From an uncultured Bacteroidia bacterium (GTDB lineage: Bacteria > Bacteroidota > Bacteroidia > Bacteroidales > Prolixibacteraceae), in assembly GCA_903923905.1 (NCBI GenBank), contig CAIXZH010000026.1, positions 1 to 50,428 on the forward strand: a stretch of DNA of 50,428 nt, written 5' to 3'. Shown here piece by piece: positions 1,812 to 23,290 of this stretch (its first letter is position 1; every line of letters starts with the position of its first letter). Made by a program: the position numbers and the translations under genes. The notes under the pieces were generated by a model. It did no database searches. It was not told the origin of the DNA and saw only the letters and a list, made by a program, of their open reading frames with translations.

Positions 1812-1884
1812 CGTATTTATCCGGATATAACCGGTAGTTTTCGAATTTAAACGGAAGTAACCGTCTAACATACGACTAACCGCC
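1812..1884 (+). promoter_or_regulatory. array of CG dinucleotides at 10-nt spacing upstream of ssb
   Basis: CG occurs at 1812, 1822, 1832, 1842, 1852, 1862, 1873 and 1881: six steps of 10 or 11, then one of 8. Between them the DNA is A/T-rich. Units read roughly CGNWWNTWNN. The array ends just before -7-like elements (TATATTTA at 1890, TAACTTTA at 1896) and about 60 bases before the ssb ATG. The spacing puts one CG per helical turn on one face of the DNA. A matching array is found at 23202-23290. Direct observation; its role as a protein-binding regulatory array is inference. Confidence 0.7.
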
Positions 1885-1941
1885 TATCCTATATTTAACT
1901 TTACCCGTCATGTTTTTTTATTCATTTCTAAAACTAAAACA

Positions 1942-2286
1942 ATGAATGCATTAAGGAACAGTGTAAGGCTTATCGGCTATCTGGGTGACACGCCCAAAAT
2001 CAAAAAGTTTGACGGCGAAAAATCGGTGGCCAATTTTACGATTGCCACAAATGAGAACTTTCGCGATCATGACGGCAATAAAAAGTCAGAGACCACCTGG
2101 CATAAATTGGTAGCCTGGGGGAGACAGGCCGATGTGGCCTCCAAATACCTGAAGAAAGGAACCGAAGTAGCAATCGAGGGGAAACTGACTAATCACTCAT
2201 ACGAAGATAAAAATGGTGAAACCCATTTTGTTACCGAGATTGTGGTCAACGACATTTTGGTTCTCGATAAAAAGGAAATAAACTAA
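1942..2286 (+). CDS. ssb: short single-stranded DNA-binding protein (SSB paralogue)
   Basis: 114 residues, essentially one OB fold: LRNSVRLIGYLGD at the N-terminus, TTWHKLVAWGRQAD in the middle, then KGTEVAIEGKL. These are standard bacterial SSB core motifs. It ends at VLDKKEIN and lacks both the flexible linker and the acidic tip (DDxPF type) that recruits partner proteins in housekeeping SSBs. Such short paralogues are known as auxiliary or DNA-uptake SSBs in other bacteria, so this is probably not the replicative SSB; that reading is inference. It stands alone, preceded by a 10-nt CG array and followed by convergent tex. The start is set by the ATG within AAACAATG and by homology of the first residues. 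Confidence 0.9.
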   Translation: MNALRNSVRLIGYLGDTPKIKKFDGEKSVANFTIATNENFRDHDGNKKSETTWHKLVAWGRQADVASKYLKKGTEVAIEGKLTNHSYEDKNGETHFVTEIVVNDILVLDKKEIN

Positions 2287-2304
2287 TTAAAAAACAGAAG
2301 ATTG

Positions 2305-2325
2305 GAATTTTCATTGTGAAAATTC
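2305..2325. terminator. AT-rich hairpin between ssb and tex
   Basis: GAATTTTCA and TGAAAATTC form a perfect 9-bp stem with a TTG loop 18 bases past the ssb stop. There is no clean T-run on the plus strand, so it is only a candidate terminator in this convergent gap. Confidence 0.35.
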
Positions 2326-2454
2326 GTTCCCGGTTTCAACGCTGATAATTCCGGGTTAGAACCTTATTTAATCTTTTTAAGCCTTAGTAGCCTTAATATC
2401 ACCCTAATAATTCAGAACCTTATTTCATACTTTACAATATTTTAAAATTAATCC

Positions 2455-4587
2455 CTATTCTGTCTGCTTCATCGAGAAGGCAATTCTTTTACGTGGTATA
2501 TCCACCTCAAGAATTTTCACCTTAACATGCTGATGAAGTTTCACAATTTCTGAAGGGTCACTCACAAAACGGTTGGCCAATTCACTGATATGAACCAGTC
2601 CGTCCTGCTTTACACCAACGTCAACAAAAACACCAAAACGGGTGATATTGGTAACTATCCCAGGAAGCACCATCCCTGTCTGCAAATCCTTTATTGAAAA
2701 GACTCCATCTGAGAATTCAAAAACCTTAATACCTGACCGGGGGTCAAGTCCTGGTTTGGCAAGTTCCACAAGGATATCATTTAAGGTCGGAAGCCCCACT
2801 TCATCATCCAGATATTTTTCAGCGATTATCTCCGAACGCAGGTTTTCGAGTCCGATCAGCTCCTCCACCCTGCATTTCCGGTCCGTGGCGATCTTACTCA
2901 CCAAAGGATAGCGTTCAGGGTGAACAGCCGAATTGTCTAGGGGATTGGTACCACCGGAAATGCGTAGAAAGCCTGCACTTTGCTCAAATGCTTTTGGGCC
3001 CATCCGGGGAACATTCTTCAACTCTTTCCGGGAGGTAAACGGACCATTCTCTTTGCGGAATTCCACAATATTTTGAGCCAGCAAAGGACCAAGTCCCGAG
3101 ACAAAATTGAGCAGATGGCTGCTTGCCGTATTGACATTTACCCCTACCAGATTGACGCACGATTCAACAACGGTATCAAGCCCCTTTTGCAGCAGTTTCT
3201 GATCGACATCATGCTGATACTGCCCAACGCCAATTGATTTGGCCTCTATTTTTACCAGTTCAGCCAGCGGATCCATTAACCGGCGGCCGATTGAAACCGA
3301 TCCGCGTACAGTGACATCATATTGCGGAAATTCATCGCGCGCGACTTTGGAGGCTGAATAGATAGAAGCCCCATTCTCGCTGACGACAAACACCTGCAAA
3401 GGCCGATCGAAGCTGATCTTCTTGATAAATGCCTCTGTCTCACGACTTGCCGTCCCGTCTCCAATCGCAATGGCATCTATCTTATAAGTACTCACCAGTG
3501 CAGAGACTTTTCGGATTGACTGACTCACTTCAGATTGAGGCGGATGGGGATATATTGTTTCATTATGGATCAAATTGCCCTGGGCATCGAGACAGACCAG
3601 TTTACAGCCACTTTTGTAACCGGGATCAAGGGCCAGAACCCGCTTTTGGCCAAGCGGCGCAGCGAGCAAAAGCTGCCGCAGATTTTCTGCAAAGACTCGG
3701 ATAGCCTCGGCATCGGCCTTTCCCTTTGACATGCCAAAGAACTCAGTTTCGATTGCCGGAGCCAGTAATCTTTTATAACTGTCCTTCACGGCAAGTGATA
3801 CCTGTGCTCCACTCTCATTTCGGCCTTTCACAAAATAATGATCGAGTGAATCAACAGCCTGCTCCTCATCCGGAGCGATTCCTATTTTCAGAAATCCCTC
3901 CTTTTCACCGCGGCGCATGGCAAGAAGTCGATGTGACGGACACCGTTTCAGGGGTTCGGAGGATTCAAAATAATCCCTGAATTTTATCCCCTCCTCTTCT
4001 TTGCCTTTAACCACATGCGAAGCAACCACGGCTTCTCGCGCGAAAAGATTCCGGACGATATTCCGTGCACCCTGATCTTCATTGATCCATTCGGCAATGA
4101 TATCCCGGGCACCGGCGAGGGCCTCTTCAACATCCGCGACAGCATCATTCAGGTACTTAAGTGCCCGGCTCTCCGGATCTGGCTCATACTGCTTAAAAAT
4201 GAGCTCTGCTAGTGGTTCCAATCCCTTTTCACGGGCAATGGTAGCCCGGGTCCGTCTTTTGGGTTTAAATGGGAGATAGAGATCCTCAAGCTCATTCAGA
4301 TCGTAACATTGCTCAATCTTAACCTTTAATTCAGGGGTAAGCAACTCCTGCTCGGTGATTGTTTTAAGAATAGTCAACTTTCGCTTGTCCAATTCATCCA
4401 GCTGCTCTTTTGCAGCCTGGATATTTCCGATTTGAACCTCGTCGAGGCTCCCTGTCATCTCTTTACGGTATCGCGAGATAAAAGGAACAGTTGCCCCTTC
4501 CTCAAGTAAAGCAATGGTATTAGCTATCTGTTTGATGCTGATGCCAAGCCGTTCAGCGATCAGCTGGTGGTTTTTCTGAATTGTCAT
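2455..4587 (-). CDS. tex: Tex-family RNA-binding transcription accessory protein
   Basis: 710 residues, the usual length for Tex. Order: N-terminal helical region (AERLGISIKQIANTIALLEEG, VPFISRYRKEMTGSLDE), then the YqgF/RNase H-like domain (VLALDPGYKSGCKLVCLD, ~320-450), helix-hairpin-helix segments (~500-560; LLNFVSGLGPLLAQNIVEFR is the first), and a C-terminal S1 RNA-binding domain (GMVLPGIVTNITRFGVFVDV, ~640-710). Tex is a cytoplasmic nucleic-acid-binding factor linked to transcription and to expression of toxins and stress genes. Starts at ATG 4587; a TAAATTTG -7 element lies only 5 bases upstream, so the message may be leaderless. Convergent with ssb. Confidence 0.96.
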   Translation of the reverse strand: MTIQKNHQLIAERLGISIKQIANTIALLEEGATVPFISRYRKEMTGSLDEVQIGNIQAAKEQLDELDKRKLTILKTITEQELLTPELKVKIEQCYDLNELEDLYLPFKPKRRTRATIAREKGLEPLAELIFKQYEPDPESRALKYLNDAVADVEEALAGARDIIAEWINEDQGARNIVRNLFAREAVVASHVVKGKEEEGIKFRDYFESSEPLKRCPSHRLLAMRRGEKEGFLKIGIAPDEEQAVDSLDHYFVKGRNESGAQVSLAVKDSYKRLLAPAIETEFFGMSKGKADAEAIRVFAENLRQLLLAAPLGQKRVLALDPGYKSGCKLVCLDAQGNLIHNETIYPHPPQSEVSQSIRKVSALVSTYKIDAIAIGDGTASRETEAFIKKISFDRPLQVFVVSENGASIYSASKVARDEFPQYDVTVRGSVSIGRRLMDPLAELVKIEAKSIGVGQYQHDVDQKLLQKGLDTVVESCVNLVGVNVNTASSHLLNFVSGLGPLLAQNIVEFRKENGPFTSRKELKNVPRMGPKAFEQSAGFLRISGGTNPLDNSAVHPERYPLVSKIATDRKCRVEELIGLENLRSEIIAEKYLDDEVGLPTLNDILVELAKPGLDPRSGIKVFEFSDGVFSIKDLQTGMVLPGIVTNITRFGVFVDVGVKQDGLVHISELANRFVSDPSEIVKLHQHVKVKILEVDIPRKRIAFSMKQTE

Positions 4588-4592
4588 AATCG

Positions 4593-4600
4593 CAAATTTA
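4593..4600 (-). promoter_or_regulatory. candidate -7 element of tex (TAAATTTG)
   Basis: On the minus strand TAAATTTG fits TAnnTTTG and ends 5 bases before the tex ATG. Transcription would start at or next to the start codon. Confidence 0.4.
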
Positions 4601-4642
4601 ACAAGATCGGGATAACCTCTTAAATTTTAATTGAAAAAAGTG

Positions 4643-4650
4643 TATGTTTG
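4643..4650 (+). promoter_or_regulatory. candidate -7 element of the AI-2E family gene (TATGTTTG)
   Basis: TATGTTTG fits TAnnTTTG and ends 21 bases before the ATG at 4672. It supports that ATG over the in-frame TTG at 4648, which lies inside the element. Confidence 0.45.
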
Positions 4651-4671
4651 ATAGAACTAATTTTCACAATT

Positions 4672-5799
4672 ATGGATCAACGGATTAAAAACGTCATTGT
4701 AGCTTTGGCCCTGGTACTTTTCGGATTCCTGGTGTATTATTTCAGTTATATCGTGACTTATATTCTTATTGCTGCGGTATTGTCGTTAATCGGACGTCCT
4801 GTCGTACGTAAATTCCAGCAAATTAGGATCAGGAACTACCAGATGGGAAAATCGGGCGCTGCATTCCTAACCCTGCTCACACTCTGGATTGGGCTCATCA
4901 GCTTTTTCGGATTCCTGATACCGATGGTCGTGTCGGAAGTAGACCAACTGTCGTCCATAAATATGCAGGAGGTGATGGCCTATTTGAATACCGCGATGAG
5001 TCAGTTAAAGATCAGTTTTCCACAATTTGCCTCTTCATTCCCCCAGGGCGGGAATCTTGAGGTATATCTTGAAACACAACTTAAAGGATTGCTCAATGTC
5101 GATCAGGTAAGTAGTGTCTTTGGCTCGGTTGCAACCGTGTTGGGGAATATCTTTCTGATGTTCTTCTCTGTTTCGTTCATTCTTTATTTTTTCCTTAAGG
5201 AGGAAGAGCTTTTCCGGAATTGGATACTTGTGCTGGCTCCGGTAAAGTTTGAGGAGCGTGTTTCTCATGTTATGGATAAGATAGGTATTCTGCTGAAAAG
5301 GTATATGATCGGTATTCTGCTGCAGATCTTAGGGGTAATGATCCTGGATGTTTTTGGGTTTACGATTGTTGGTCTGGGATTTGGACATGCCGTGGTTGTC
5401 GGGGTTTTTGCCGGAATACTGAATGTGATTCCGTATATCGGTCCCTGGATTGCAGCCATATTTGCACTTGTTGTTGCCGTGGCAAATAACCTGAATTCGA
5501 GCTTCACATCAGTTACGCTTCCATTAATGTGCTATGTGGTTATCGTGGTGATGGTCGTTCAGTTTATCGACAGCATGATTTTTCAGACCATTATCTACTC
5601 TCACAGTGTCAAAGCCCATGCCCTTGAGATTTTCTTCGTGATTCTGATGGCAGGTGGCATTGCAGGAATCCCGGGGATGATTCTGGCTATCCCGGTTTAT
5701 ACTGTGATCCGCGTAATTGCAGGGGAGTTCTTTTCCGAGTTTAAAATCGTTCAGCAACTGACTCCGAAGGATCGAACCATTCCTCTCTCAAACAGCTAG
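4672..5799 (+). CDS. AI-2E/PerM family integral membrane protein
   Basis: 375 residues from ATG 4672 (an in-frame TTG at 4648 adds eight residues but overlaps the promoter core). About eight hydrophobic segments, with a soluble amphipathic stretch near residues 100-150, give the pattern of the UPF0118/AI-2E exporter family. The C-terminal part has the family's GILNVIPYIGPWIAA segment and AGIPGMILAIPVYTVIRV. Members have been tied to autoinducer-2 export, Na+/H+ antiport or permease roles; substrate cannot be read from sequence. The last 12 bases overlap the convergent heme O synthase gene. Promoter core just upstream suggests a single-gene transcript. Confidence 0.9.
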   Translation: MDQRIKNVIVALALVLFGFLVYYFSYIVTYILIAAVLSLIGRPVVRKFQQIRIRNYQMGKSGAAFLTLLTLWIGLISFFGFLIPMVVSEVDQLSSINMQEVMAYLNTAMSQLKISFPQFASSFPQGGNLEVYLETQLKGLLNVDQVSSVFGSVATVLGNIFLMFFSVSFILYFFLKEEELFRNWILVLAPVKFEERVSHVMDKIGILLKRYMIGILLQILGVMILDVFGFTIVGLGFGHAVVVGVFAGILNVIPYIGPWIAAIFALVVAVANNLNSSFTSVTLPLMCYVVIVVMVVQFIDSMIFQTIIYSHSVKAHALEIFFVILMAGGIAGIPGMILAIPVYTVIRVIAGEFFSEFKIVQQLTPKDRTIPLSNS

Positions 5800-6678
5800 A
5801 TGAGGTGATATCAGGGCATTCAGAACAAGAAACAGAAAAACCACCAAAGCATAGGTATTTATCAGAATAAATGCCTTATAGATAGTTTTTGAATCCTTCT
5901 CGCCAAAAAGAAAACGGTGAAACAGGAAGATAAACCCAAAGTTCATACCAACTAACAAGGTAAGCAGCAAAGGTTTAAAACTGAATCCAAAGAAAGGGAA
6001 AAGCATCAGGAAAAGAGAGGTTATAACTCCCCAGTAGAAAACCACCGATTTGATTTGACGTTCACTCAGAGATTTAGAGATGGAAGAAAATCCCGCCATC
6101 TCGTACTCTTTGCCGTATTTAATCATCAGCAACCAGAAATGGGGGATCTGCCACAGAAAGACAAAGATCGCAACAAACATCGCGTGTGGGTGAAAAATAT
6201 AATAACCAGCTGAAGTCCAGCCAATCAGCGGAGGAACCCCTCCAACCACCGCTCCGGGAATTATCGCCAGCCAGCTGCGGGTCTTTAACGGGGTGTAAAT
6301 CAGATTATAGAATACAATGTTTGAGAGTCCCAAGACCATGGGAAGCCATCCATTCAATCCAAGCATAGCCGTTCCTAGCAAAAGCAACAAAGCAGAAACC
6401 ACCGATGCTGCAAAAAGTGAAATCTCACCGGAAGGGATTGGCCTATGATTCGTCCGTGGCATCATCCCGTCTCGACTGCTCTCCTGGATCTGGTTGAGAA
6501 CAGTAGTTCCGGCAGCCAGAAAAAAAACGCCCGCAAAAAGATAAAATACGGAAATACCAGGGGCGCTGCCAGTCAGAAAATAGCCAGTCGTGGCAGAAAC
6601 GGTAACCATCAGCGACAAGCGAATCCTTGTCAGCCTGATCAATACGTCAACACGTTGTTTAAAATTACTTTTGTCCAC
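5788..6678 (-). CDS. ctaB: protoheme IX farnesyltransferase (heme O synthase)
   Basis: 296 residues, UbiA-type prenyltransferase with 7-9 membrane spans. It transfers a farnesyl group to heme B to give heme O, the precursor of heme A for aa3-type oxidases. Family motifs visible: the first Asp-rich loop as NQIQESSRDGMMPRTNHRPIP (~62-82, with the RTxxRP signature) and the second loop near IKYGKEYEMAGF. It is the last gene of the oxidase block, its start overlapping the coxB end by 14 bases, so it is translated in the same operon. Heme A synthase (CtaA) is not in the window. The 3' end overlaps the convergent AI-2E family gene by 12 bases, leaving no room for an intergenic terminator. Confidence 0.95.
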   Translation of the reverse strand: MDKSNFKQRVDVLIRLTRIRLSLMVTVSATTGYFLTGSAPGISVFYLFAGVFFLAAGTTVLNQIQESSRDGMMPRTNHRPIPSGEISLFAASVVSALLLLLGTAMLGLNGWLPMVLGLSNIVFYNLIYTPLKTRSWLAIIPGAVVGGVPPLIGWTSAGYYIFHPHAMFVAIFVFLWQIPHFWLLMIKYGKEYEMAGFSSISKSLSERQIKSVVFYWGVITSLFLMLFPFFGFSFKPLLLTLLVGMNFGFIFLFHRFLFGEKDSKTIYKAFILINTYALVVFLFLVLNALISPHLAV

Positions 6679-7600
6679 CAGCCGTTTTAAAATAGTCTAC
6701 AATTTTATCGATATCCTCGGCTTTAAGCGTCTCCTTGTAGGACTGCATCAGCCCCTTATTAAATCCTTTTACCACATCTGCATTGGGATCCAGGATTGAT
6801 CGTTTAATGTATTCGTCGTCAGCCACCACTTCTCTTTCAGTGTTATTGGTAACCACAGTCCTCTTTGTTCCGTAAATACCTTTGAGTGATGGGCCAATAA
6901 TTTTGGTGCCATCAAGAGAGTGACAGGTTAAGCAGGCGTTGGCTTTGATGATTGCAAGCCCGGGGTGTTCAGGGCCGGAAGCAGCCACTTTCAGATCGGC
7001 CAGCCATTTATTAAATTCAAGACTATCAACTACGATAACTTTGGCCGTCATGCCGGAGTGTGCCAAACCACAATACTCAGTACAGAAGATATCAAAAGTT
7101 CCTTTAGATATAGGCCTGAACCACAGATAATTATTGTATCCAGGAATCACATCTTCCTTTACCCGGAAAGCCGGAATAAAAAGGCTATGGTTTACATCAG
7201 CTGAATAAAGGTTCATCTTCACATTTCGGTTAAGCGGAACAACCAGGTCTTTCGAAATCTTACCATTGCCATAATCAAAATTCCACTCCCACATCTTTCC
7301 GATTGCTTTGATTTGCATGGCATCTGCCGGAACTTTACGCATCGGTGAAAATCCTACCCATCCGTAATAAAACATGATTAAAACCAGGATTAGCGGAACA
7401 ACTGTCCAGATTATCTCAAGTTTCGTATTGCCTGAAAATTGCTGCGGAGATTTATTCTTCTTCCTCGAAAAATGGATCAGAATATAGATGATCAGCGCAA
7501 CTATGCCGATTAAGAAAATAAACGCGGTTGCGAAGATGAAAATAAACGCCCGGTCTACCCCTTCGGCCAAATTGGATGCTCCAGAGAACATTGTTGTCAT
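6665..7600 (-). CDS. coxB: cytochrome c oxidase subunit II with fused cytochrome c (caa3 type)
   Basis: 311 residues from ATG 7600; an upstream in-frame TTG at 7630 would overlap the preceding gene and is less likely. Two N-terminal membrane hairpin segments, then the periplasmic cupredoxin domain with the CuA site CTEYCGLAHSGM (Cys173, Cys177, His181, Met184) and His138 in DVNHSLFIP. A C-terminal mono-heme cytochrome c domain follows (CLTCH, ~223-227; GPSLKGIYG after it). The fusion defines a caa3-type oxidase, which takes electrons from a periplasmic cytochrome. Ten bases separate it from the subunit IV gene upstream. Confidence 0.95.
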   Translation of the reverse strand: MTTMFSGASNLAEGVDRAFIFIFATAFIFLIGIVALIIYILIHFSRKKNKSPQQFSGNTKLEIIWTVVPLILVLIMFYYGWVGFSPMRKVPADAMQIKAIGKMWEWNFDYGNGKISKDLVVPLNRNVKMNLYSADVNHSLFIPAFRVKEDVIPGYNNYLWFRPISKGTFDIFCTEYCGLAHSGMTAKVIVVDSLEFNKWLADLKVAASGPEHPGLAIIKANACLTCHSLDGTKIIGPSLKGIYGTKRTVVTNNTEREVVADDEYIKRSILDPNADVVKGFNKGLMQSYKETLKAEDIDKIVDYFKTAGGQK

Positions 7601-7610
7601 AGTTTGGGAA

Positions 7611-7895
7611 TTATCTGAAATAATAATCAATAAAAGTAATCACAATGATTATCGCGAACAGGAGGAATACCCCTCCAACCATCAAACGGAGAATAAGATT
7701 CTCAAATTTGAGGTGCATAAAATAGGTTAGTACAATCGTTGTCTTGATTGATGCAAGTATTAGTGCCAACGCAACAGTGTATGCCCCCAAATGGAATTTA
7801 ATTACCAAAATTGAGGTCATTGTAAGTATAAGCAGAACAAGCAGCACCTTCAGATTCAGTGCATAGCTGGTAATATGGCTGTCGTGGTTCTTCAT
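7611..7895 (-). CDS. cytochrome c oxidase subunit IV
   Basis: 94 residues with three predicted membrane spans (LKVLLVLLILTMTSILV, YTVALALILASIKTTIVLTY, LMVGGVFLLFAIIIVITFI) and the family's FMHLKFEN loop. It matches the small prokaryotic COX4/CyoD-like subunit IV that stabilises the subunit I/III core. It lies between coxC and coxB in the same orientation; 132 AT-rich bases separate it from coxC. Confidence 0.9.
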   Translation of the reverse strand: MKNHDSHITSYALNLKVLLVLLILTMTSILVIKFHLGAYTVALALILASIKTTIVLTYFMHLKFENLILRLMVGGVFLLFAIIIVITFIDYYFR

Positions 7896-8027
7896 TCGTA
7901 TATAACTTTGTAAATCAATTAATTATTACAATATAATTTCTACTTATTTCAATTCTATTTCTATTTATTTCAAAATGAAACTATCGCGTTTAACTTGAAA
8001 TGAGCTATTTTTAATACTAAGAAAAGT

Positions 8028-8648
8028 CTAAGTAATCAAATAGAGTAACGGGAAAAGGAAGATCCAGATTAAATCGACCAAATGCCAGTATAGCGCTCCG
8101 TTTTCATGCAATAAAAAATGTTCCTGGTTAATCTTACCGGACCACACCTTGAGCAGGATAATCGTTAATAAAATACCTCCAACCACCACGTGGAAGAGAT
8201 GCAATCCCGTCATTAGAAAATAGAGCCCAAAAAACATGATCTCTCCATGCGGAAGATTTCGCATCACATCAGAACCGGGATATAAATGAAGTGCGAATTT
8301 ATGACCATATTCAAAATACTTATTCATCATAAAAACTCCGGCTAAAAGCAATGTGCAAAATATCAATATCATAGCCAATTTAGGCTGATTCTTTTGAATA
8401 GCGGTTAGGGACATGGCCACAGTCATACTACTTACAAGCAGCACTACCGTATTGGTTGCCCCAATAAAGGCATTGAGTTCGAGGGCCGCATGATGGAATT
8501 CTTCCCCATATTTGGACCGCATGACTGCATAGACAATAAAAAGTCCGCCAAACAGGAAGAGCTCAGTAAAAAGGAATAACCACATCCCCATTTTACCGGT
8601 TTCGCTGTCAATGTATTCGCTATGTTCGCTGTGTTCAGTTGTCGACAT
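8028..8648 (-). CDS. coxC: cytochrome c oxidase subunit III
   Basis: 206 residues with five membrane spans, the length of the short bacterial subunit III that lacks the first two helices. Family signatures: KMGMWLFLFTELFLFGGLF near residue 20, ATNTVVLLVSSMTVAMS, GLHLFHVVVGGILL and the C-terminal YWHLVDLIWIFLFPLLYL. The His-rich N-terminus (HSEHSEY) is unremarkable in this family. It follows coxA by 26 bases in the operon. Confidence 0.95.
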   Translation of the reverse strand: MSTTEHSEHSEYIDSETGKMGMWLFLFTELFLFGGLFIVYAVMRSKYGEEFHHAALELNAFIGATNTVVLLVSSMTVAMSLTAIQKNQPKLAMILIFCTLLLAGVFMMNKYFEYGHKFALHLYPGSDVMRNLPHGEIMFFGLYFLMTGLHLFHVVVGGILLTIILLKVWSGKINQEHFLLHENGALYWHLVDLIWIFLFPLLYLIT

Positions 8649-8674
8649 AAATCAAGGTGTTTTAAGCTGAAATA

Positions 8675-11067: not shown

Positions 11068-11189
11068 TCCAAAAATTTTAACAATTCTAATTTCTTTCCC
11101 TTTAAACAGCCATGCGAACTTTTGTACTTAACCGTGGCCTTTAAAGAAATGATGTTATTATCCAAACCTGGTATAAATACACCGATACC

Positions 11190-12107: not shown

Positions 12108-12124
12108 TGGTAATATGTTAGCGA

Positions 12125-13471: not shown

Positions 13472-13518
13472 AGTTTTGGTTATTTTATTTTTAAAAATTA
13501 TTTAACGTCAATGGTGAG

Positions 13519-13546: not shown

Positions 13547-13561
13547 AGAATTAATTCTAAA

Positions 13562-14533: not shown

Positions 14534-14560
14534 AAATTGGGGGATGTTTATTCAGTTTGT

Positions 14561-14929: not shown

Positions 14930-15297
14930 TCGTTAAGTAAATTAAAATCAATAAATGGATCAGGAACTGCTACCTAAAACATTAAAATAAAACTCTTCAA
15001 CTATAAATAGATGAATGATCAGTTAGTTAAATGAAGCGTCTAAAACTACAAATATATTTCTATATTCCAACAAAATCGGTATTAACTTTTCAGATTTTAC
15101 CGGTTACAGACACAAACTTTAAAACCAAACACTTTTAAAGGAGTTCCTTAAAATTCAAAAAGGACTATTCATCCCTGTTTCAGAAAAACCGGAATGAATA
15201 ATCCAAATCTGCATTTCCCATCAACTTAGCTTAAAAACAAATTAAGAAGATGAAAAGTTCAACGGCTAAAAGAAAATATATTCAATTCTAACCGTTT
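14930..15297. other. AT-rich intergenic region upstream of the respiratory block
   Basis: No coding frame of note. It should hold the promoter for the minus-strand block. TATATTTG on the minus strand (15049-15056) fits the -7 consensus and is about 120 bases from the ATG at 14929. A TTTG lies 14 bases further upstream (15071-15074), closer than the usual spacing. Nothing else is visible apart from the pfkA terminator at its right edge. Confidence 0.4.
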
Positions 15298-15325
15298 TAA
15301 AAAAAAATCGCAGAATGACCTGCGG
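15298..15325 (-). terminator. rho-independent terminator of pfkA
   Basis: On the minus strand CCGCAG, a six-base loop and CTGCG form a stem, followed by a run of at least eight T. It begins 9 bases after the pfkA stop. Confidence 0.85.
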
Positions 15326-15333
15326 TTTGCTAT

Positions 15334-16356: not shown

Positions 16357-16377
16357 ACTCTTTTATTTTAATCCGCA

Positions 16378-16385
16378 CAAATTTA
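16378..16385 (-). promoter_or_regulatory. candidate -7 element of pfkA (TAAATTTG)
   Basis: TAAATTTG on the minus strand, ending 21 bases before the pfkA ATG. No TTTG at the expected -33 position. Confidence 0.45.
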
Positions 16386-16572
16386 ACCGGGAATGAGGTG
16401 TGAATATGAAATTCACCGTTAAATTTACTTCAATTTTGGTGAAATTGATTATTAACGCTGTTAATTATTACAAAATGAGAATTTTACGGAATCCTTGCCA
16501 ATTTATTTATCCCTGTGTAAAGGATCGTAAATCAACTAGCTTTCTATGGGCGGGCCAATGTCGGCAACCGGA

Positions 16573-16598
16573 TCCAGGAAGTTGAGGTTGTTCCTGGA
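16573..16598. terminator. hairpin downstream of ispH
   Basis: TCCAGGAA and TTCCTGGA form a perfect 8-bp stem with a 10-base loop, 24 bases beyond the ispH stop. No T-run follows on the minus strand, so it may be a processing or decay-protecting hairpin rather than an intrinsic terminator. Confidence 0.4.
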
Positions 16599-16622
16599 CC
16601 ATTTACCTAGAGCAAAAAGAGA

Positions 16623-17501
16623 TCAAAATGCACCGTTATTTTTTATCTCCAACAGCCAAATGGCGTTTGCAACATCTTCAAGCAGTTTCCGGGGCGTTGA
16701 GGTTGCACCGCAAATCCCCACTGAATCAACCTCCTTAAACCATTGTTCATCCAGCTCTTCGATCGATGATATGAATTTACTGTTGGGATTTTCAGTCTTA
16801 CAAATATCAAAAAGCATCTTCCCGTTTGAGCTCTTGAGACCACTCACAAAAATGATCAAAGAATAAAGATGGGAAAACTCTTTAATCCCGGGAATACGGT
16901 TGGAAACCTGTCTGCAAATGGTATCATGGATCTTAAGTGAAGCCTGATTCGCTATACGTTCCAACGCATCCGCAAGCAGGTGAAACCCGTCGAGCTCCTT
17001 GGTTGTTTGGGCATAGAGCTCAATAGGGCGATCCAGATCGATCTGATCAATTTCTGCAGAACTCTCAATAACAATCGCCTGACTATCGGTCTGACCCACT
17101 AGTCCATTGACTTCAGCATGACCTTTCTTGCCAAAAATGACAACCTGCGTCCCTTTATCCTTCCCCGATTCATACCCTGAGCGGATTCGTTGCTGCAGCT
17201 TTAACACTATTGGACAGGTAGCATCAATCAGCTCAATATTATTTTGCCGGGCATATGCATAAGTCGAAGGAGGCTCTCCATGTGCACGCAGGAAAACGGT
17301 GGCATCTTTCATGGTGAAAAAACGGTCGTGGTCAATTGTGATCAACCCCATCTTCGAAAGACGTTCAACTTCTGATTCATTATGAACAATATCCCCCAGA
17401 CAATAAAGCTGGTTCTTTTTCATCAAAGCCTCCTCAGCCTTTCTGACCGCCGAAGAAACGCCAAAACAAAATCCCGAATTGTTATCGATAGCTATGATCA
17501 T
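16623..17501 (-). CDS. ispH: 4-hydroxy-3-methylbut-2-enyl diphosphate reductase
   Basis: 292 residues. Last enzyme of the MEP isoprenoid pathway, an [4Fe-4S] protein giving IPP and DMAPP. Three cluster cysteines are visible: SGFCFGV (~12), DATCPIV (~95) and ICGATSTPRKLLEDV near the C-terminus. Other family motifs are LRAHGEPPS, GKKGHAEVNGL and QTTKELDGF. ATG 17501 is 9 bases after the cmk stop, so cmk and ispH form an operon, an arrangement seen repeatedly in bacteria. Confidence 0.97.
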   Translation of the reverse strand: MIIAIDNNSGFCFGVSSAVRKAEEALMKKNQLYCLGDIVHNESEVERLSKMGLITIDHDRFFTMKDATVFLRAHGEPPSTYAYARQNNIELIDATCPIVLKLQQRIRSGYESGKDKGTQVVIFGKKGHAEVNGLVGQTDSQAIVIESSAEIDQIDLDRPIELYAQTTKELDGFHLLADALERIANQASLKIHDTICRQVSNRIPGIKEFSHLYSLIIFVSGLKSSNGKMLFDICKTENPNSKFISSIEELDEQWFKEVDSVGICGATSTPRKLLEDVANAIWLLEIKNNGAF

Positions 17502-17510
17502 ATCCTTAAA

Positions 17511-18203
17511 TCAGATTTTAGCCACCAGGTTAAGTATCCAATCAAATTGCTCTTCCTTTGTCAAATAGCTGTTATCCAGCACAATCGCATCTTCTGCCTT
17601 CCGTAATGGACTCTCTTGACGGGTCTCATCGTAATGGTCACGTTCAAGGATATTTGATCGGATCTCTTCATAACTAACCACTTCACCTTTTGAGGTTAGC
17701 TCGTCGAAGCGTCTCTGTGCCCTGACATCGGGAAGAGCTGTCATAAATATTTTCAGTTCAGCTTTGGGAAAAACAACGGTCCCGATATCGCGTCCGTCCA
17801 TCACAATCCCCTTCGACTTTCCCATCTCCTGCTGAAGCGAAACGAGCAGATGCCGCACCTGAGCAACTGCAGAAACCGGGCTGACATTTTGAGAAACCTC
17901 CAGCAACCGGATTTCATTTTCAACATTCTCCCCGTTGAGCCAGACATCGTTATTCCGGGTCCCCGGATTATATTTAAAAGAAACCCTGATCTTATCAAGA
18001 TTTGCAATTAATTTCTCCCTCCCGACAAAGCCGTTCTCGATGATATGATTTCTCAGGCAATAAAGAGTAACAGCACGATACATCGCGCCCGTGTCAATAA
18101 AGATATAATTCAATTTACGGGCAATCTCCCTGGCGACTGTGCTCTTTCCACAGGAGGAGTGACCATCAATGGCAATGACTATTTTCTTTTCGTTTCCCAA
18201 CAT
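17511..18203 (-). CDS. cmk: cytidylate kinase
   Basis: 230 residues from ATG 18203. The frame extends upstream to 18269, but a TATCTTTG promoter core lies inside that extension and the family starts near KKIVIAIDGHSSCGKST. The P-loop is GHSSCGKST, followed by DTGAMYRAVTLY and MDGRDIGTVVFPKAELKIFM, all diagnostic of (d)CMP kinase, which phosphorylates CMP and dCMP. First gene of the cmk-ispH operon. Confidence 0.96.
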   Translation of the reverse strand: MLGNEKKIVIAIDGHSSCGKSTVAREIARKLNYIFIDTGAMYRAVTLYCLRNHIIENGFVGREKLIANLDKIRVSFKYNPGTRNNDVWLNGENVENEIRLLEVSQNVSPVSAVAQVRHLLVSLQQEMGKSKGIVMDGRDIGTVVFPKAELKIFMTALPDVRAQRRFDELTSKGEVVSYEEIRSNILERDHYDETRQESPLRKAEDAIVLDNSYLTKEEQFDWILNLVAKI

Positions 18204-18223
18204 CTTCTTTTCGGTTTTCGGAA

Positions 18224-18231
18224 CAAAGATA
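18224..18231 (-). promoter_or_regulatory. candidate -7 element of cmk (TATCTTTG)
   Basis: TATCTTTG on the minus strand, 20 bases before the ATG at 18203; it supports that start over the longer frame. Confidence 0.45.
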
Positions 18232-18344
18232 ATGCAAATGATAATAGAGAGCCGAACTAAGGAGTACAAGCAAGCAGCCAGCTGAAAGTAAAGTCAGGTG
18301 AACAAATTAAATGTAGAATAATTTTTCCTGCCTGATTCCCGTGA

Positions 18345-18836
18345 TTACAGTTCTTCCTTCTTCAAATGCTCAACCACATTGTAAACAATCGGGCAGATAA
18401 CCCGGTTCCTCATTGTGAGATCAAGCAACTGATAAAACCTCCGGCGGTTGGTGTGGGGATAATCCTGACAAGCCTTGGGGCGGTATTCATAAATCATGCA
18501 ATAATTGTCGGGCATCAGAAACGGACACGGGGTTTCATTAAACACATAACACTGATCTTCATCAATATGGAGGTACCTGGTTATAAAATCAGACTCCTTC
18601 ATTTTCTGCCGGCGGGCAATCCGTTCGATATCCTTGTCAGTGATCATCGGACTTATTGATTTACAGCAATTACCACAAGTCAGGCAATTGAATTGACCCG
18701 TTACTTTATCGTGCCAACGATGGGTTAGATCGTCGAGTTGTTTCGGCTTTTTCCTTTTCAGCTTATTGAAAAAAACAGTCGTTTCCTCCTGATTCTGAAG
18801 TGCCAGCGCTTTGACGTTTTTATTATCTGCCTCCAT
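18345..18836 (-). CDS. YkgJ-family cysteine-cluster protein
   Basis: 163 residues. The core is FNCLTCGNCCKSISPMITDKD (~53-73) followed by CYVFNETPCPFLMPDNYCMIYEYRPKACQDYP. The CxxCxxCC plus CPFL plus C-x6-RPxxC pattern is that of the YkgJ/UPF0153 family, thought to bind zinc or an iron-sulfur cluster. Its function is unknown. Its start overlaps the end of the upstream DMT exporter gene by 14 bases, so the two are translationally linked. Confidence 0.88.
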   Translation of the reverse strand: MEADNKNVKALALQNQEETTVFFNKLKRKKPKQLDDLTHRWHDKVTGQFNCLTCGNCCKSISPMITDKDIERIARRQKMKESDFITRYLHIDEDQCYVFNETPCPFLMPDNYCMIYEYRPKACQDYPHTNRRRFYQLLDLTMRNRVICPIVYNVVEHLKKEEL

Positions 18837-19749
18837 CCTGTTGAATTGTTACCAGCCTTGCTATAAATTTTTTCATTTTGACCTGTGCAATAAAAAGTCC
18901 GGCAATGACTACTGCAATTCCGGTTAGCTTCCGAAAGGTAAGAGGTTCCCCAAGGATATACCATGCAAAAATAGCCGTCATAACCGGAATAAGGTTTATA
19001 AATATATTGGCATTATTCATCCCTATCTTCTTAAGACTGAAGGCATAAAAGATAAATGAAAGGCAGGAGGCAAAAAGAGCCAGCTCCGCTATTGCGATAA
19101 ATGCATGAAGATTAAAAGCAGTATTCATTAAACTTTTGCTCTCAAAAACCAGCCAGAAAGGGAGAAAATAGAAGATTCCGATCAAATTCTGGTAGGTGAT
19201 TATTGTTGAAGCATTATACTTTTTTGAAAGGTCCTTCAATACGACGGTATAGGCAATTGCAGCAAAGACAGCAAGAAATTCCAGACAGATTCCAAGTGGG
19301 GATATGATAAAGTTAACCGAATCATCAAAAACTACTATTCCGACACCAATAAACGATAGAATAATCCCAATAAAATTGCGAAATGAAAGTTTTTCATTCA
19401 GAAAATAAGAAGCTGCAATTGGTGAAAATAAAGGAATGGTTGCAATGATAATTGCCCCCATTGTACTTGAAATATATTTCAATCCAAAACTTTCACCCAT
19501 AAAATAAAGGAAGGGTTCAAAAAAGGCCAGCAAAAGGAAAAGACGGTAATCCTGTTTTTCAATTTTTAAAAGATTATTGCTGATCCATCCATAAATCAAC
19601 ATCAGAATTGTGGCGATGATGAGCCGGAAGAAAACCGCTGTCAACGGTCCATATGAAACATAAACCACTTTTATCCATACAAATGATAACGACCAGAAAA
19701 CCATGGCCAATACCAGTGCAATATAGACGATCACTTTTTTGTGCCCCAT
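18823..19749 (-). CDS. EamA/DMT-superfamily transporter
   Basis: 308 residues from ATG 19749, in preference to the upstream in-frame ATG at 19860: a TACTTTTG promoter core lies between them and the longer N-terminus is polar and unlike the family. Ten membrane spans arranged as two five-helix EamA repeats, e.g. IALVLAMVFWSLSFVWIKV at the start and GEPLTFRKLTGIAVVIAGLF near the end, typical of drug/metabolite exporters. Substrate unknown. The first gene of a pair with the YkgJ-type protein. Confidence 0.9.
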   Translation of the reverse strand: MGHKKVIVYIALVLAMVFWSLSFVWIKVVYVSYGPLTAVFFRLIIATILMLIYGWISNNLLKIEKQDYRLFLLLAFFEPFLYFMGESFGLKYISSTMGAIIIATIPLFSPIAASYFLNEKLSFRNFIGIILSFIGVGIVVFDDSVNFIISPLGICLEFLAVFAAIAYTVVLKDLSKKYNASTIITYQNLIGIFYFLPFWLVFESKSLMNTAFNLHAFIAIAELALFASCLSFIFYAFSLKKIGMNNANIFINLIPVMTAIFAWYILGEPLTFRKLTGIAVVIAGLFIAQVKMKKFIARLVTIQQDGGR

Positions 19750-19766
19750 CCCGAAATTTTGAACTG

Positions 19767-19774
19767 CAAAAGTA
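19767..19774 (-). promoter_or_regulatory. candidate -7 element of the EamA gene (TACTTTTG)
   Basis: TACTTTTG on the minus strand, 17 bases before the ATG at 19749. Confidence 0.4.
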
Positions 19775-20010
19775 GGATAAATATTCAGGGTAGGATTAAA
19801 TACCGTATATAATTGTCTGTGGGGGCAGGAAAATTGCAAGTGGCTGTTAGCGTTTGGCAACTTGCTTATTCTGCTTTAAAAAGATGCCTGTTGCCCTTCT
19901 TCCAATCCCATTATAAATGTTGAGATTAGCGGCATACCTGTTGCCAGCCGCCAGAAGCAATTCATACCATATTAATCATTTTAAACCTAAATATTCAGAT
20001 CTAAGCCAGA

Positions 20011-20826
20011 CTACTTCTTCAAAATTGCAATGAAAAACATTTTCATATCCTTCCAAGAATCCTCATCCGCCTTTTTGTTGTATTCAATCGGCATATTAAA
20101 TTTCTTGCCCGTCGCCGTACTTGACGGATTTGTAAAGGCATGTGTAGCATTTGGATAGACAATGAATTTATAATAAGCTCCAATGGAATCGAGTTGGTGC
20201 CTGAAAATTGAAATATCATTCTCAGAAATAAACTTGTCGCTACCGCCATGGCAAACCAGGATTTTTGCTTTTAATAAACCTTTGTTTGCAGGTACACCGG
20301 CAAGCCCCCCGTGAAAGCTTACCACTCCAAGGAGATCAGCACCCAGCTTTGCGGAATTCAACACTACGGAACCTCCAAAGCAATAACCAATGGCAAAAAT
20401 TTGATGGGAATCAGTCTGTTTGTATTCATTGAGTTTTGATTGAGCAGCCTCAAGGATGGATTTTGCTAGTTGAGGATCCTTGTAAAAAGGAGTTGCAAGA
20501 TCTTTAGCTTCTGTTGGATTTGCAGCAATCTTACCATTCCCATACATATCCACTGCCATTGCAATATATCCAAGTTTAGCCAATTCTTTGGCTTTCATGA
20601 TGGGATAATCTGTCAGACCCCACCATTCATGGACAACTAAGACCGCAGGTCGTTTGCCTTTCAGATTTTGATCATAAACAATCACCCCATTGAACGTTTT
20701 ATCACCGGAACGATAGGTGACCTTTTCTTCTTTAATATTTGAAGATGATGCATTTTCACCAAAACCAGAATTGATAGCTATCATGTTGAGTAAAATAAAA
20801 CAGGGAAGGCAACTTTTAAGTTTCAT
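20011..20826 (-). CDS. secreted dienelactone hydrolase-family protein
   Basis: 271 residues, alpha/beta hydrolase. An N-terminal signal (CFILLNMIAINSGFG) points to export. The nucleophile elbow is GYCFGGSV with Cys, the dienelactone hydrolase signature; Asp in GGSDKFISE and His in YPNATHAFT complete the triad. VLVVHEWWGLTDYPI near residue 60 is the family oxyanion segment. Real substrates of such exported members are seldom known; ester or lactone hydrolysis is expected. It stands alone, divergent from the VirJ-like gene with ~120 bases between. Confidence 0.9.
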   Translation of the reverse strand: MKLKSCLPCFILLNMIAINSGFGENASSSNIKEEKVTYRSGDKTFNGVIVYDQNLKGKRPAVLVVHEWWGLTDYPIMKAKELAKLGYIAMAVDMYGNGKIAANPTEAKDLATPFYKDPQLAKSILEAAQSKLNEYKQTDSHQIFAIGYCFGGSVVLNSAKLGADLLGVVSFHGGLAGVPANKGLLKAKILVCHGGSDKFISENDISIFRHQLDSIGAYYKFIVYPNATHAFTNPSSTATGKKFNMPIEYNKKADEDSWKDMKMFFIAILKK

Positions 20827-20947
20827 GACGAAGGTTTTAAGAAATATCAGAAGAACAACAAATGGGTCTGAAAATAGTTCAGGTAACAGGAATTCCTTTT
20901 ACATTCGCAAAAAATTATTTTTTTGGAGTAACCATTAAAACCCGGAG

Positions 20948-21643
20948 ATGACAAAATTCAAAAGATACCTGGGATTCAGCATGATCTGTCTGCTTTCTAA
21001 TATCGCTGTTATTAGTGCTCAGGAAGTTGATCCGAAACCGGATTTTCCCTTGCAGTTTTCAGTTTCACATGGGATTCATGATGAACTGGTAATTTATGTG
21101 ACCGGTGACGGTGGTTGGAATAGCTTTAACCAGCAAATGGTTCAGGAATTTGAACATCAAGGGTATGGGGTCGTGGCATTCAATAGCCGGAAATATTTCT
21201 GGAGTGGAAAATCCCCCGAAGATTTTGCACGTGATATCGCTCAGTTGACCGATTATTATCTGCAAGGCTGGAAAAAATCATCGGTGATTTTTGTAGGATA
21301 TTCCTTCGGAGCTGATGTGGTAAGCTTTGTGCCGAACCGTTTATCTACAGCATTGCAAAAAAAAATTAAAAGGATTGCACTGATTTCCCCTTCTGCAAGT
21401 ACCGATTTTGTAATCCGGCTGAGCGATCTGGTCGGTGAAACTGAAAATCTGAACCGCCGGTACAAAGTGAAACCTGAAATTGATCAAATTGAATTTCCTG
21501 TTGTTTGTTCCTTTGGGAAAGAGGAAGTGAAAGTTTTGAAAAGCTCCCTGAAAAGCCGAAATAACCTGACCACCATTGAATTGCCCGGCGATCACCGGTA
21601 TAACAATGATTATAGCCTGCTTCTCAAAGGAATTGGGCTGTGA
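20948..21643 (+). CDS. AcvB/VirJ-family hydrolase, secreted
   Basis: 231 residues. Signal peptide to about residue 25 (SMICLLSNIAVISAQ). Core: LVIYVTGDGGWNSFNQQM (oxyanion region, family hallmark GDGGW), VAFNSRKYFW, GYSFGADVVSF (Ser nucleophile), and GDHRYNND (catalytic His). This is the VirJ domain; in Agrobacterium and relatives AcvB/VirJ is a periplasmic hydrolase of lysyl-phosphatidylglycerol, partnered with an LpiA/MprF synthase. No MprF-like gene is in the window, so substrate is open. GGAG lies directly upstream of ATG 20948. Confidence 0.88.
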   Translation: MTKFKRYLGFSMICLLSNIAVISAQEVDPKPDFPLQFSVSHGIHDELVIYVTGDGGWNSFNQQMVQEFEHQGYGVVAFNSRKYFWSGKSPEDFARDIAQLTDYYLQGWKKSSVIFVGYSFGADVVSFVPNRLSTALQKKIKRIALISPSASTDFVIRLSDLVGETENLNRRYKVKPEIDQIEFPVVCSFGKEEVKVLKSSLKSRNNLTTIELPGDHRYNNDYSLLLKGIGL

Positions 21644-21704
21644 ATTGAAGCTATAAAAGTTTCCACAGAAAAGTAATCACGCTGTTTATTATGGTCTGCT
21701 CTGG

Positions 21705-21756
21705 TTCCTGGCTGTTGTTCTCTCCTTAAGAATCCCCCCCAGGTTACAGCCAGGAA
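21705..21756. repeat. 11-bp perfect inverted repeat between convergent genes
   Basis: TTCCTGGCTGT (21705-21715) and ACAGCCAGGAA (21746-21756) with a 30-base spacer that includes a run of seven C. It lies between the convergent VirJ-like and rsmG genes. It may act as a bidirectional terminator or be a small mobile palindromic element. Confidence 0.5.
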
Positions 21757-21853
21757 TTAAGACATTATTAAATTCTCTCATTCATTTTTATTTTTTCATC
21801 AAATAGATTAAGAAAATATGAATGACCAAATGTTGGATGGATTCAGAGTTAGA

Positions 21854-22525
21854 TTAAATGTAATTATCATTCATAGATTCGGTTACTCTTTCAATCAGGA
21901 AATTATCCAAGGGAAGGTAAACCACTTTTTTGGTCTGGAATGACGGTTCATCAAAGAACCGGGTTATTTCTTTCACTTCCACTTTTTTCTTAAACTCAAT
22001 AATTTCATCGTCGAAGCTCCCCCCTTTCAAATAGATAATTCCATTAGGTCGGAGGTTTTGAGAGTTGCCAGAGACATTTTTTTTCACAAGGCTTACCAAT
22101 TTAGGGAACGCTGCCACTGCCCGTGAAACCACAAAATCATACTCCTCAAAAATATCCTCTATCTTACAGTGAATAGCTATAACATTTTTAAGCTTGAGCA
22201 TTTCGATAGCAGCCTGAACTACACGAATCCGCTTCTGCATTGAATCAATCAGGGAGAACTGACAGTCAGGGAAAAGGATAGCCAGCGGAATACCAGGAAA
22301 TCCGCCTCCGGTACCTACATCCAATATCCTGCTACCTGCCTTAAAATGAATGACCTTGGCGATTGCCAGCGAGTGTAATACGTGTTCTTCGTATAAAGAG
22401 TCAATTTCTTTTCTGGGTAATACCTTTATCAGGGTATTCCATTGCCGGTAAAAGGAAGACAATTTATCGAAACGGCAAATCTGTTCAGACGACAAATTGG
22501 GAAAATATTTAAGGAGTATTTGCAT
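21854..22525 (-). CDS. rsmG: 16S rRNA (guanine527-N7)-methyltransferase
   Basis: 223 residues. The SAM-binding motif is ILDVGTGGGFPGIPLAILFPD (~81-101), followed by the conserved FSLIDSMQKRI and later VSRAVAAFPKLV. RsmG methylates G527 in the 530 loop of 16S rRNA; loss gives low-level streptomycin resistance in several bacteria. ATG 22525 is 19 bases after the ECF sigma stop, so they are probably co-transcribed. The C-terminus (VYLPLDNFLIERVTESMND) is slightly extended but unremarkable. Confidence 0.95.
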   Translation of the reverse strand: MQILLKYFPNLSSEQICRFDKLSSFYRQWNTLIKVLPRKEIDSLYEEHVLHSLAIAKVIHFKAGSRILDVGTGGGFPGIPLAILFPDCQFSLIDSMQKRIRVVQAAIEMLKLKNVIAIHCKIEDIFEEYDFVVSRAVAAFPKLVSLVKKNVSGNSQNLRPNGIIYLKGGSFDDEIIEFKKKVEVKEITRFFDEPSFQTKKVVYLPLDNFLIERVTESMNDNYI

Positions 22526-22544
22526 ATCCGCTTTTTTTAAAAAA

Positions 22545-23159
22545 TTAGGAGTAACTGATTTCGCTGTTTTTCAGAAGTTGACAAAGCAATTTGCGAGACC
22601 GGAATAATTGCATTTTAACGGTTCCAATGGGCAGATTCAATTCTGAAGCAATCTCCGAATAGGAGCGCTCCCCGAAATACCGCATTTCAAACGGGATTCG
22701 ATACGAGGGTTTCATACCTGAAATAAATTTGCGCAGGGTTATTTTATTTTCATCCTTAATCAATGCCTCCTCTGGATTGTCTGTATCAGAGAGAAAGTTA
22801 TCCGGGCCTGCTGATTGCCTGAATTTAGGGTCGTCAGACCTGGAAACGACATATTTGTCATCTGTATTTTTTTTGCGCAGATAATCAATAGTATGGTTAT
22901 GTGCAATTCTAAACAGCCAGGAGCCAAAGGCAAACTGTTGCTCATACTGGTGCAGGTTAATAAAAGCCTTTTCAAAGGACTCAACGGTCAGCTCCCTCGC
23001 AACCTCTTTATAATTAACCATTTTCAGGATTAAATAGAAAACAGGATCCGAATAACGGTTCATGAGTTGATCAAAAGCTCGCAAGTCACCCGAGCGAATA
23101 GCAATTACCAGTAATAAATCATGCGGTGCATTTCCATGGAGGATGGGATTCATTTTCAA
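22545..23159 (-). CDS. ECF-type RNA polymerase sigma factor
   Basis: 204 residues. Sigma-70 region 2 at ~25-95 (FDQLMNRYSDPVFYLILKM, FGSWLFRIAHNHTIDYLRKK) and region 4 at ~145-195 (PFEMRYFGERSYSEIASELN, then GTVKMQLFRSRKLL). A linker of about 50 residues separates them. No anti-sigma factor gene is adjacent; rsmG follows instead. The gene is divergent from the small zinc-ribbon gene, and the intergenic region holds the second 10-nt CG array. What it controls cannot be read here. Confidence 0.94.
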   Translation of the reverse strand: MKMNPILHGNAPHDLLLVIAIRSGDLRAFDQLMNRYSDPVFYLILKMVNYKEVARELTVESFEKAFINLHQYEQQFAFGSWLFRIAHNHTIDYLRKKNTDDKYVVSRSDDPKFRQSAGPDNFLSDTDNPEEALIKDENKITLRKFISGMKPSYRIPFEMRYFGERSYSEIASELNLPIGTVKMQLFRSRKLLCQLLKNSEISYS

Positions 23160-23180
23160 TTTTTATTAAGAAAACCAATC

Positions 23181-23188
23181 CAAATTTA
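23181..23188 (-). promoter_or_regulatory. candidate -7 element of the sigma gene (TAAATTTG)
   Basis: TAAATTTG on the minus strand, 21 bases before the sigma ATG. The CG array begins about 14 bases further upstream of it, so the array could touch both divergent promoters. Confidence 0.45.
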
Positions 23189-23201
23189 AATCATACCAGC
23201 G

Positions 23202-23290
23202 CGAAGAGTCGGATTATAAACGGTTATTTCCGTTTGTATTCGGTTTTATCCGATTATTTTCGTTTGTAAACGCTTTTAATCGGATATTTT
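23202..23290 (+). promoter_or_regulatory. second array of CG dinucleotides at 10-nt spacing
   Basis: CG occurs at 23210, 23221, 23231, 23241, 23251, 23261, 23271 and 23281: one step of 11, then six of exactly 10, with an extra CG at 23202. Units fit CGNTTNTWNN closely (T at unit position 5 and 7 in all of the last seven). The array lies between the divergent ECF sigma gene and the zinc-ribbon gene (ATG 23400). A -7-like TATTTTTTG follows at 23305. It matches the array before ssb in spacing and composition. Confidence 0.75.

Follow-up and report, generated by a model that had tools for sequence, protein, structure and literature searches.

A 10-bp-phased CpG array upstream of a short ssb gene and a small zinc-site protein gene in Bacteroidia

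The DNA analysed here, referred to as the window, is a stretch of 50,428 nucleotides (nt) from an uncultured Prolixibacteraceae bacterium of the class Bacteroidia (assembly GCA_903923905.1, contig CAIXZH010000026.1, positions 1 to 50,428). Two of its short genes, ssb2, which encodes a single-stranded-DNA-binding protein (SSB), and a gene termed z, which encodes a small protein with a predicted zinc site, are each preceded by an array of CG dinucleotides repeated at 10 bp. Judged from sequence comparison, this array stands at one exact distance from the ssb promoter in many Bacteroidia, and array, z and ssb2 behave largely as a module across genomes, which supports a functional link between them. 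The explanation that we favour, with a probability of about 0.52, is that the arrays are cooperative operators holding one protein subunit per helical turn, probably bound by z, and placed to activate ssb.

The two arrays in the window

The array upstream of ssb2 lies at 1812..1874 and its orientation corresponds to the minus strand; it has seven CGs in steps of 10, 10, 10, 10, 10 and 11, with the edge CG at 1873-1874. The array upstream of z, on the plus strand at 23210..23282, has eight CGs, which start at 23210, 23221, 23231, 23241, 23251, 23261, 23271 and 23281 (one step of 11 followed by six of 10); extra CGs start at 23200 and 23202, and the weight-matrix match reaches 23300. A preliminary description of this DNA had reported both arrays, and they are present as described, with CG starts on the ssb side at 1812, 1822, 1832, 1842, 1852, 1862, 1873 and 1881 (steps 10, 10, 10, 10, 10, 11, 8). 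Its count of eight CGs in register stands for the z array, but on the ssb side the eighth CG (1881..1882) lies 8 bp past the edge CG and off the conserved register, the edge being at 1873, next to the 11-bp step that recurs in the class. The unit pattern that it proposed, CGNWWNTWNN, fits all of the last seven units of the z array by eye, but needs correcting in that the unit is dyad-symmetric about the CpG.

Chains of exact 10-nt spacing reach a length of 6 in the ssb array and 7 in the z array. The maximum among first-order Markov shuffles of the whole window (n=100) was 4, reached in nine of them, and the longest chains in local-region shuffles (20,000 per region) were 4 and 5. A four-unit weight matrix, trained on a set of upstream regions that included the window's own z array, gave scores of at least 20 at two places in the window only, which are the arrays (31.9 and 38.0); 50 shuffled windows contained no match at this score, with a maximum of 13.1. 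Shuffled DNA therefore falls short of the observed chains and scores alike, and the possibility that the preliminary description had itself raised, that such arrays occur at random frequency, did not hold. An accidental spacing of CGs in AT-rich DNA is contradicted by these shuffles and by the conservation of the array in relatives, nothing was found in its favour, and with a negligible probability it can be regarded as already refuted.

The two genes lie on one contig, 21 kb apart, and had been called unlinked, which needs correcting: in several relatives ssb is adjacent to and divergent from z, with a single common array between them. A common array is also present at L035, a record of Draconibacterium sediminis. 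In the window the ssb array is oriented in reverse to the z array, and its orientation relative to ssb is that found in the relatives. As this is the orientation expected from a divergent ssb-z pair, the two window arrays may be the halves of one divergent promoter region that was split and duplicated, and the gene pair looks ancestrally divergent rather than like two unrelated loci.

Unit structure and conservation of the array

The repeating unit has the consensus CGGTTATAAC and is present in about 5 to 9 copies with a period of 10 bp. Compared with its own reverse complement, the unit matrix scores 0.97-0.98 when centred on the CpG and about 0.80 at the next best centre, and in the consensus CpG and TpA stand 5 bp apart. 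A cyclic hidden Markov model (HMM) recovered a recurrent layout, often with one 11-nt step followed by 10-nt steps, and distinct end units, CGGTTA at the start of the array and CGGATAA at its finish.

All 16 loci read from the window's genus (L001-L016, window included) carry an array upstream of z, the weakest having HMM scores of 12.5-13.8, and CG-CG pairs at lag 10 are enriched in them (z-score 24). For the wider collection of z loci, a scan of genome contigs contributed 80 of at least 577 loci; the collection comprised 110 loci, which are partly redundant as it includes some duplicates (the arrays of L031 and L032 are identical to those of L011 and L010). Adjacent divergent ssb genes were found at 34 of the 110, and the array model, which was trained on those same loci, scored above 3 in 33 of these 34 (L057 scored 2.0). 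At 11 loci ssb and z are separated by other genes, and there the array stays by ssb. Lag-10 pairs were counted 55 times against 8.3 expected (z-score 18) in the 30 ssb-adjacent loci outside L001-L016, and the lag peaks there were 10, 20, 21, 30, 31 and 41. The 64 z loci lacking an adjacent ssb showed no lag-10 excess (37 against 32.6 expected); in these same loci lag 12 was over-represented, with 54 pairs observed and 33 expected.

Across a class sample of 376 genomes the array model matched 196 at E <= 1e-3. The other refuting condition named in the preliminary description, a lack of conservation upstream of orthologues of the two genes, did not hold either. Of the alignments behind the models, A2 used 32 of 48 candidate stretches and A4 32 of 54. 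Eight of 60 stretches fetched in one set had no array at threshold 24, as had 2 of 20 and 3 of 40 in later sets at threshold 20; some of these stretches had been chosen for z and not for the array.

Anchoring to the ssb promoter

The ssb2 gene (1942..2286, plus strand) encodes a protein of 114 aa with the SSB OB-fold (PF00436, 3.6e-32; TIGR00621, 1.1e-35). Replicative bacterial SSB is defined by an acidic C-terminal tip. The ssb2 product has no such tail and ends in ...NDILVLDKKEIN, and eight aligned relatives are equally short. Two loci (L454 and G257:C11:371110-371861, in genomes G163 and G257) have tandem duplicated short ssb genes by one array.

A predicted -7-like element of the ssb promoter, TTTA, lies at 1900..1903 on the plus strand, 30 bp from the edge CG; transcription of ssb2 is predicted to begin shortly after 1905. 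Among 157 ssb upstream regions, 44 fell below the array threshold and were dropped; the distance between the array edge and a TTT[AG] box is exactly 30 nt in 102 of the remaining 113 (TTTG alone in 99), the motif having been widened to TTT[AG] after the window's TTTA had been seen. The next commonest distance was found in 8 of the 113, and a random-anchor control gave 8 or fewer. These loci are related by descent, and after grouping of similar upstream regions the box was at 30 nt in 76 of 87 groups. The spacing is not circular, because the box is outside the array model. In an earlier pass over 121 loci the box was placed at 30 nt in 56 and at 51 nt in 40.

The z protein and its promoter side

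The z gene (23400..23780, plus strand) encodes 126 aa with an N-terminal CxxC...CxxxC treble-clef-like zinc site, a long helix and a C-terminal alpha/beta part. In an alignment of 60 z proteins the invariant positions include C6, C9, C22, C26, R16, R27, N52, Y98 and G101. Nothing in Pfam passed its cut-off, the best matches being DUF2116 and zf-FCS, both below theirs, and NCBIfam gave no match; PHROGs returned a family of unknown function (3e-5) and the PDB sequences RPA12 at E 0.056. The AlphaFold model (mean pLDDT 87.6) has the zinc site at the N-terminus, a helix at residues 36-61 and then a strand, a helix and four strands, and its C-terminal part is read as winged-helix-like.

On the z side a possible -7-like element, TATATTAG, is predicted at 23314..23321 on the plus strand; its TTAG and the last CG are 37 nt apart, and relatives differ in this distance. 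The start codon of z follows the last array CG at 11 to 274 nt, and in most of 66 loci at less than 60 nt. A fixed spacing of 16-19 nt, suggested by eye, was rejected after the count over the 66 loci, in which the distances of TAnnTT[TA][GA] scatter from 8 to 48 and a TT is found at 15-20 nt in 16.

Of 101 genomes, among them that of the window, 41 have a z gene, and named relatives carrying it are Mariniphaga, Draconibacterium and a metagenome-assembled genome (MAG) of the Prolixibacteraceae, which place the window in or near this family. In the window's genus 16 of 17 other genomes have a z match, and G003 has only fragments with stops. Two relatives of z (L040 and L085) are found in MAGs labelled Deltaproteobacteria and Chlorobiota, owing to mis-binning or transfer. 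A phage origin was considered and rejected: of 13 z relatives in viral contigs, none has an array at a score of at least 22.

Co-occurrence of array, z and short ssb

Presence was called at E <= 1e-3 for the array model and E <= 1e-6 for z, in a phylum sample of 296 genomes and the class sample of 376, which overlap. The phylum sample contained 59 genomes with the array and 67 with z, and comparison of the lists by reading showed that all 59 array genomes have z, although the match in G144 is short (E 1.4e-10). In the class sample the array was found in 196 genomes and z in 270; 193 have both, three the array only, 77 z only and 103 neither (Fisher p 3e-38, a statistic that ignores phylogeny). 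Of the three array-only genomes two are fragmented (G448, about 460 contigs, and G466, about 410). Of the z-only genomes six were examined, and in five a short ssb has a weaker array nearby, with scores of 18.7-30.2. The z gene is often far from the array or on another contig, and in G175 it is about 1.2 Mb away. One genome lacking both z and array, G348, keeps an ssb-like frame of 123 residues (5.5e-23).

Other genes beside arrays

Arrays usually adjoin ssb. In the phylum sample the 30 loci with the best arrays have as neighbours, in overlapping categories, ssb at 27, z at 7 and a recombinase at 3, and a further 16 loci from the class sample have ssb at 14 and z at 8. Tyrosine recombinases were found beside arrays in eight genomes (G217, G293, G277, G202, G206, G297, G571 and G097). 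When four of them were scanned with NCBIfam, the best matches were XerA-type and integron integrase, one above the curated cut-off; those of G293, G297 and G097 were called by similarity to these four and that of G571 by Pfam. In G202 and G206 it is a second z copy, and in G097 the single z detected, that directly follows an array with a recombinase on its other side, so the ssb-z arrangement is repeated there with the recombinase as partner. A z gene divergent from a tyrosine recombinase across an array is seen at L288:1804-3473, L289:2608-3930 and L218:493-2411, and in several of these recombinases the SAM-like domain is preceded by about 100 additional N-terminal residues. In G289 a recombinase lies next to ssb (L262), with no array in the stretch read.

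A regulon common to ssb and z had been proposed in the preliminary description, and it gains support from further arrays before other genes, both in the genome of the window and in those of relatives. The window's genome has two more strong arrays, one on contig C89, preceding a gene that ends in DUF559, and one on C95, between a PAS-domain gene and the gene of a large secreted protein, as well as weaker ones, including one on C12 before the gene of a 160-aa protein. By N-terminal similarity, a PAS-type gene opposite a large protein occurs at seven loci in six genomes of the genus, an array-adjacent 246-aa protein recurs in four and the 160-aa protein in three. At L212:4427-7598 and six similar loci the array lies between the PAS-type gene and the gene of a very large, secreted-looking protein. 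The 246-aa and 160-aa proteins (L161:2162-2902 and L213:3167-3649) have no match in Pfam. Arrays elsewhere lie by genes for RecQ, a UvrD-like helicase, a 3'-5' exonuclease, a Y1 transposase and ComM, each in a single genus or genome. Two small genomes of one genus, G409 and G545, have dozens of array matches (46 in G409, both strands counted). Since some arrays in array-rich genomes lie between convergent genes, single neighbours there mean little.

The recurrent targets would thus be ssb2, z and, in several lineages, the XerA/integron-integrase-like tyrosine recombinase, to which single lineages add others, and a theme of handling single-stranded or incoming DNA can be hypothesised. A competence regulon as the general rule was rejected after arrays had been sought at dprA, comEC and comM in 30 array-bearing genomes. 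No array was found upstream of dprA in any of the 30. Three have one at comEC, of which two, from one genus, are placed where the preceding gene ends, ahead of what by eye resembles a terminator, and the third is weak (17.7). Two, both of one array-rich genus, have one at comM; the region upstream of comM was poorly tested in G148, where the frame has a break close to its start. Elsewhere in the window, an open frame of 2409 residues lies at 32960-40189 on the minus strand.

Comparison with known systems

Binding sites of ArcA, a response regulator of the OmpR/PhoB family, consist of two to five direct repeats, mostly 11 bp from centre to centre (PMC3798270). They resemble the array in being long promoter operators of helically phased elements of about 10 bp in variable copy number; the array differs in its 10-bp steps after one of 11, its dyad-symmetric unit, its strongly conserved CpG and its up to 9 units. 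The 11-bp direct repeat of the ArcA/OmpR type was not found, as lag 10 is the main peak and 11 nt is mostly confined to the first step. BldC of Streptomyces is a small winged-helix protein that oligomerises along repeats and distorts promoter DNA (PMC5859096; discussed in PMC11963761). One DNA turn separates its molecules at the smeA promoter, and its consensus AATTXXXX(C) recurs every 9 bp, long sites being bound with little dependence on sequence (PMC5859096, PMC11963761). In contrast to BldC, z has a zinc site; searches of Pfam and NCBIfam up to an E of 0.1 matched it to neither MerR-like nor HTH_17 families, which speaks about z only.

Both systems share with the array that they are phased, repeated and cooperative, while the array lacks their repeat features. 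As ArcA and BldC read helically phased repeats, the array belongs to a known kind, as a variant. The preliminary description had regarded such an element as undescribed; no publication on this array or on z was found by title or abstract in searches of an open-licence library, but helically phased repeats as such are known from these two regulators. On this basis the site appears undescribed, and the regulator family is perhaps so too. To our knowledge the array is among the longest helically phased operators known.

An SOS operator was also considered. The LexA-type SOS system of Bacteroidetes has ssb among its targets and uses the dyads GGA-N5-TCC or CTAA-N5-TTAG as operators (PMC8565304). 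The array shares the ssb target and the phylum with it, and was rejected as a LexA operator on comparison by reading, as the period-10 unit is unlike either dyad.

Alternative explanations

It is quite possible, if short of probable, that the array is an operator bound by another regulator, such as a response regulator of the OmpR/ArcA type or a winged-helix protein resembling BldC, and that z is just a target with a downstream role beside SSB. The ArcA sites of up to five direct repeats and the BldC filaments show that known families are capable of this, z belongs to no recognised DNA-binding family, and G444 has an array with no z match. G237 and G360 lack z, short ssb and array jointly, and a third protein could have been lost with them. 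What speaks for z is that it stays constant across the array while the divergent partner changes (ssb2 or the recombinase), that second z copies have arrays of their own and that nearly all array genomes have z. The dyad-symmetric unit with its 10-bp step also counts against this alternative. The alternation of CpG and TpA at half-turn phase could instead make the DNA bendable, to be wrapped by a general nucleoid protein or eased in promoter opening with no dedicated regulator; arrays between convergent genes, as in G409 and G545, would suit such a mechanical element. We consider it improbable, as the exact 30-bp ssb spacing, the frequent 11-bp first step, the edge-specific units and the link to z-bearing genomes call for specific recognition. 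Least credible of these is a recombination or folded-single-strand site of the attC kind, used by nearby tyrosine recombinases or the Y1 transposase, which do adjoin some arrays. Three of the four strands of the window arrays fold better than dinucleotide shuffles (z-scores -3.8, -4.6 and -5.3; the fourth -1.6), largely because the unit is palindromic. Over 45 arrays the mean z-score against shuffles is -1.7 and that of synthetic unit-matrix arrays -0.9, which leaves a small excess, but against permuted unit order the mean is only -0.43, with 5 of the 45 below -2. No consensus structure was found in 32 aligned arrays, nor a conserved folded strand of the integron attC type, and the fixed spacing from the -7 box is unexpected for a recombination site. 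A structured RNA leader finds no more support: Rfam gave no match on 1700-2300 and one chance match (E 0.73) on 23100-23800, and alignment A4 yielded no consensus structure.

Several observations weigh against operators bound by z that activate ssb. Eleven of the 113 ssb promoters have no box at 30 nt. The z-side spacing is variable, TAnnTT[TA][GA] being found within 60 nt in 41 of the 66 loci and absent in 25. G444, which is 99% complete in about 90 contigs, has the array (E 1.1e-4) and no z match; together with the variable z-side spacing, this slightly reduces our confidence in the explanation. Conversely, 77 of the 270 z genomes have no array at threshold, and one of the six examined lacks it even at a low threshold. 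Some of the arrays in G409 and G545 (L315-L326) lie between convergent genes, where a promoter operator is unable to explain them. The winged-helix reading of z comes from the secondary structure of a single AlphaFold model, and a Foldseek search with z against the PDB gave no match at E below 1. Finally, G237 and G360, which lack z and array, also lack a clear short ssb and retain only ssb frames of 124-165 residues, mostly weak matches; as all three are missing together, the co-occurrence shows a module and not binding by z.

Proposed mechanism and significance

Periodicity, dyad symmetry, the exact spacing from the ssb promoter and the phyletic link to z can be read from the sequences directly. 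From these we infer a protein that would bind one unit per helical turn, cooperatively and along one face of the DNA, at about 10.0 bp per turn, the bound unit being one subunit or dimer per 10.0 bp; the polymerising protein would be as the preliminary description had envisaged it. Free B-DNA has about 10.5 bp per turn, so that six exact 10-bp steps would drift by about 3 bp unless the DNA is held or the protein is flexible, and the 11-bp step may correct part of that drift. The exact 30-bp spacing suggests the position of an activator at ssb, where the array edge, near -37, could allow it to contact RNA polymerase, replacing the -33 box. On the z side, binding may shade the z promoter and so cause autorepression; this is the weakest step, a guess, because the spacing there is variable. 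With less certainty the binder may be z itself, since z is constant while its divergent partner changes, its second copies have their own arrays and it is found in nearly all array genomes; a regulator divergent from its own target would be the usual arrangement.

In its widest form, which we hold to be doubtful, z would found a new family of small zinc-finger transcription factors whose dimers line up as a filament, one to each turn of DNA kept at 10.0 bp, and which activate a dedicated SSB that protects ssDNA as well as, in some lineages, an integrase of the integron type, as a class-wide regulon of Bacteroidia for acquiring or recombining single-stranded DNA. The array offers a direct way into the biology of the short SSB paralogue and of a zinc-finger family that has no function assigned in the libraries searched. 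It also allows one to ask cheaply if promoter DNA can be kept at 10.0 bp per turn by a protein.

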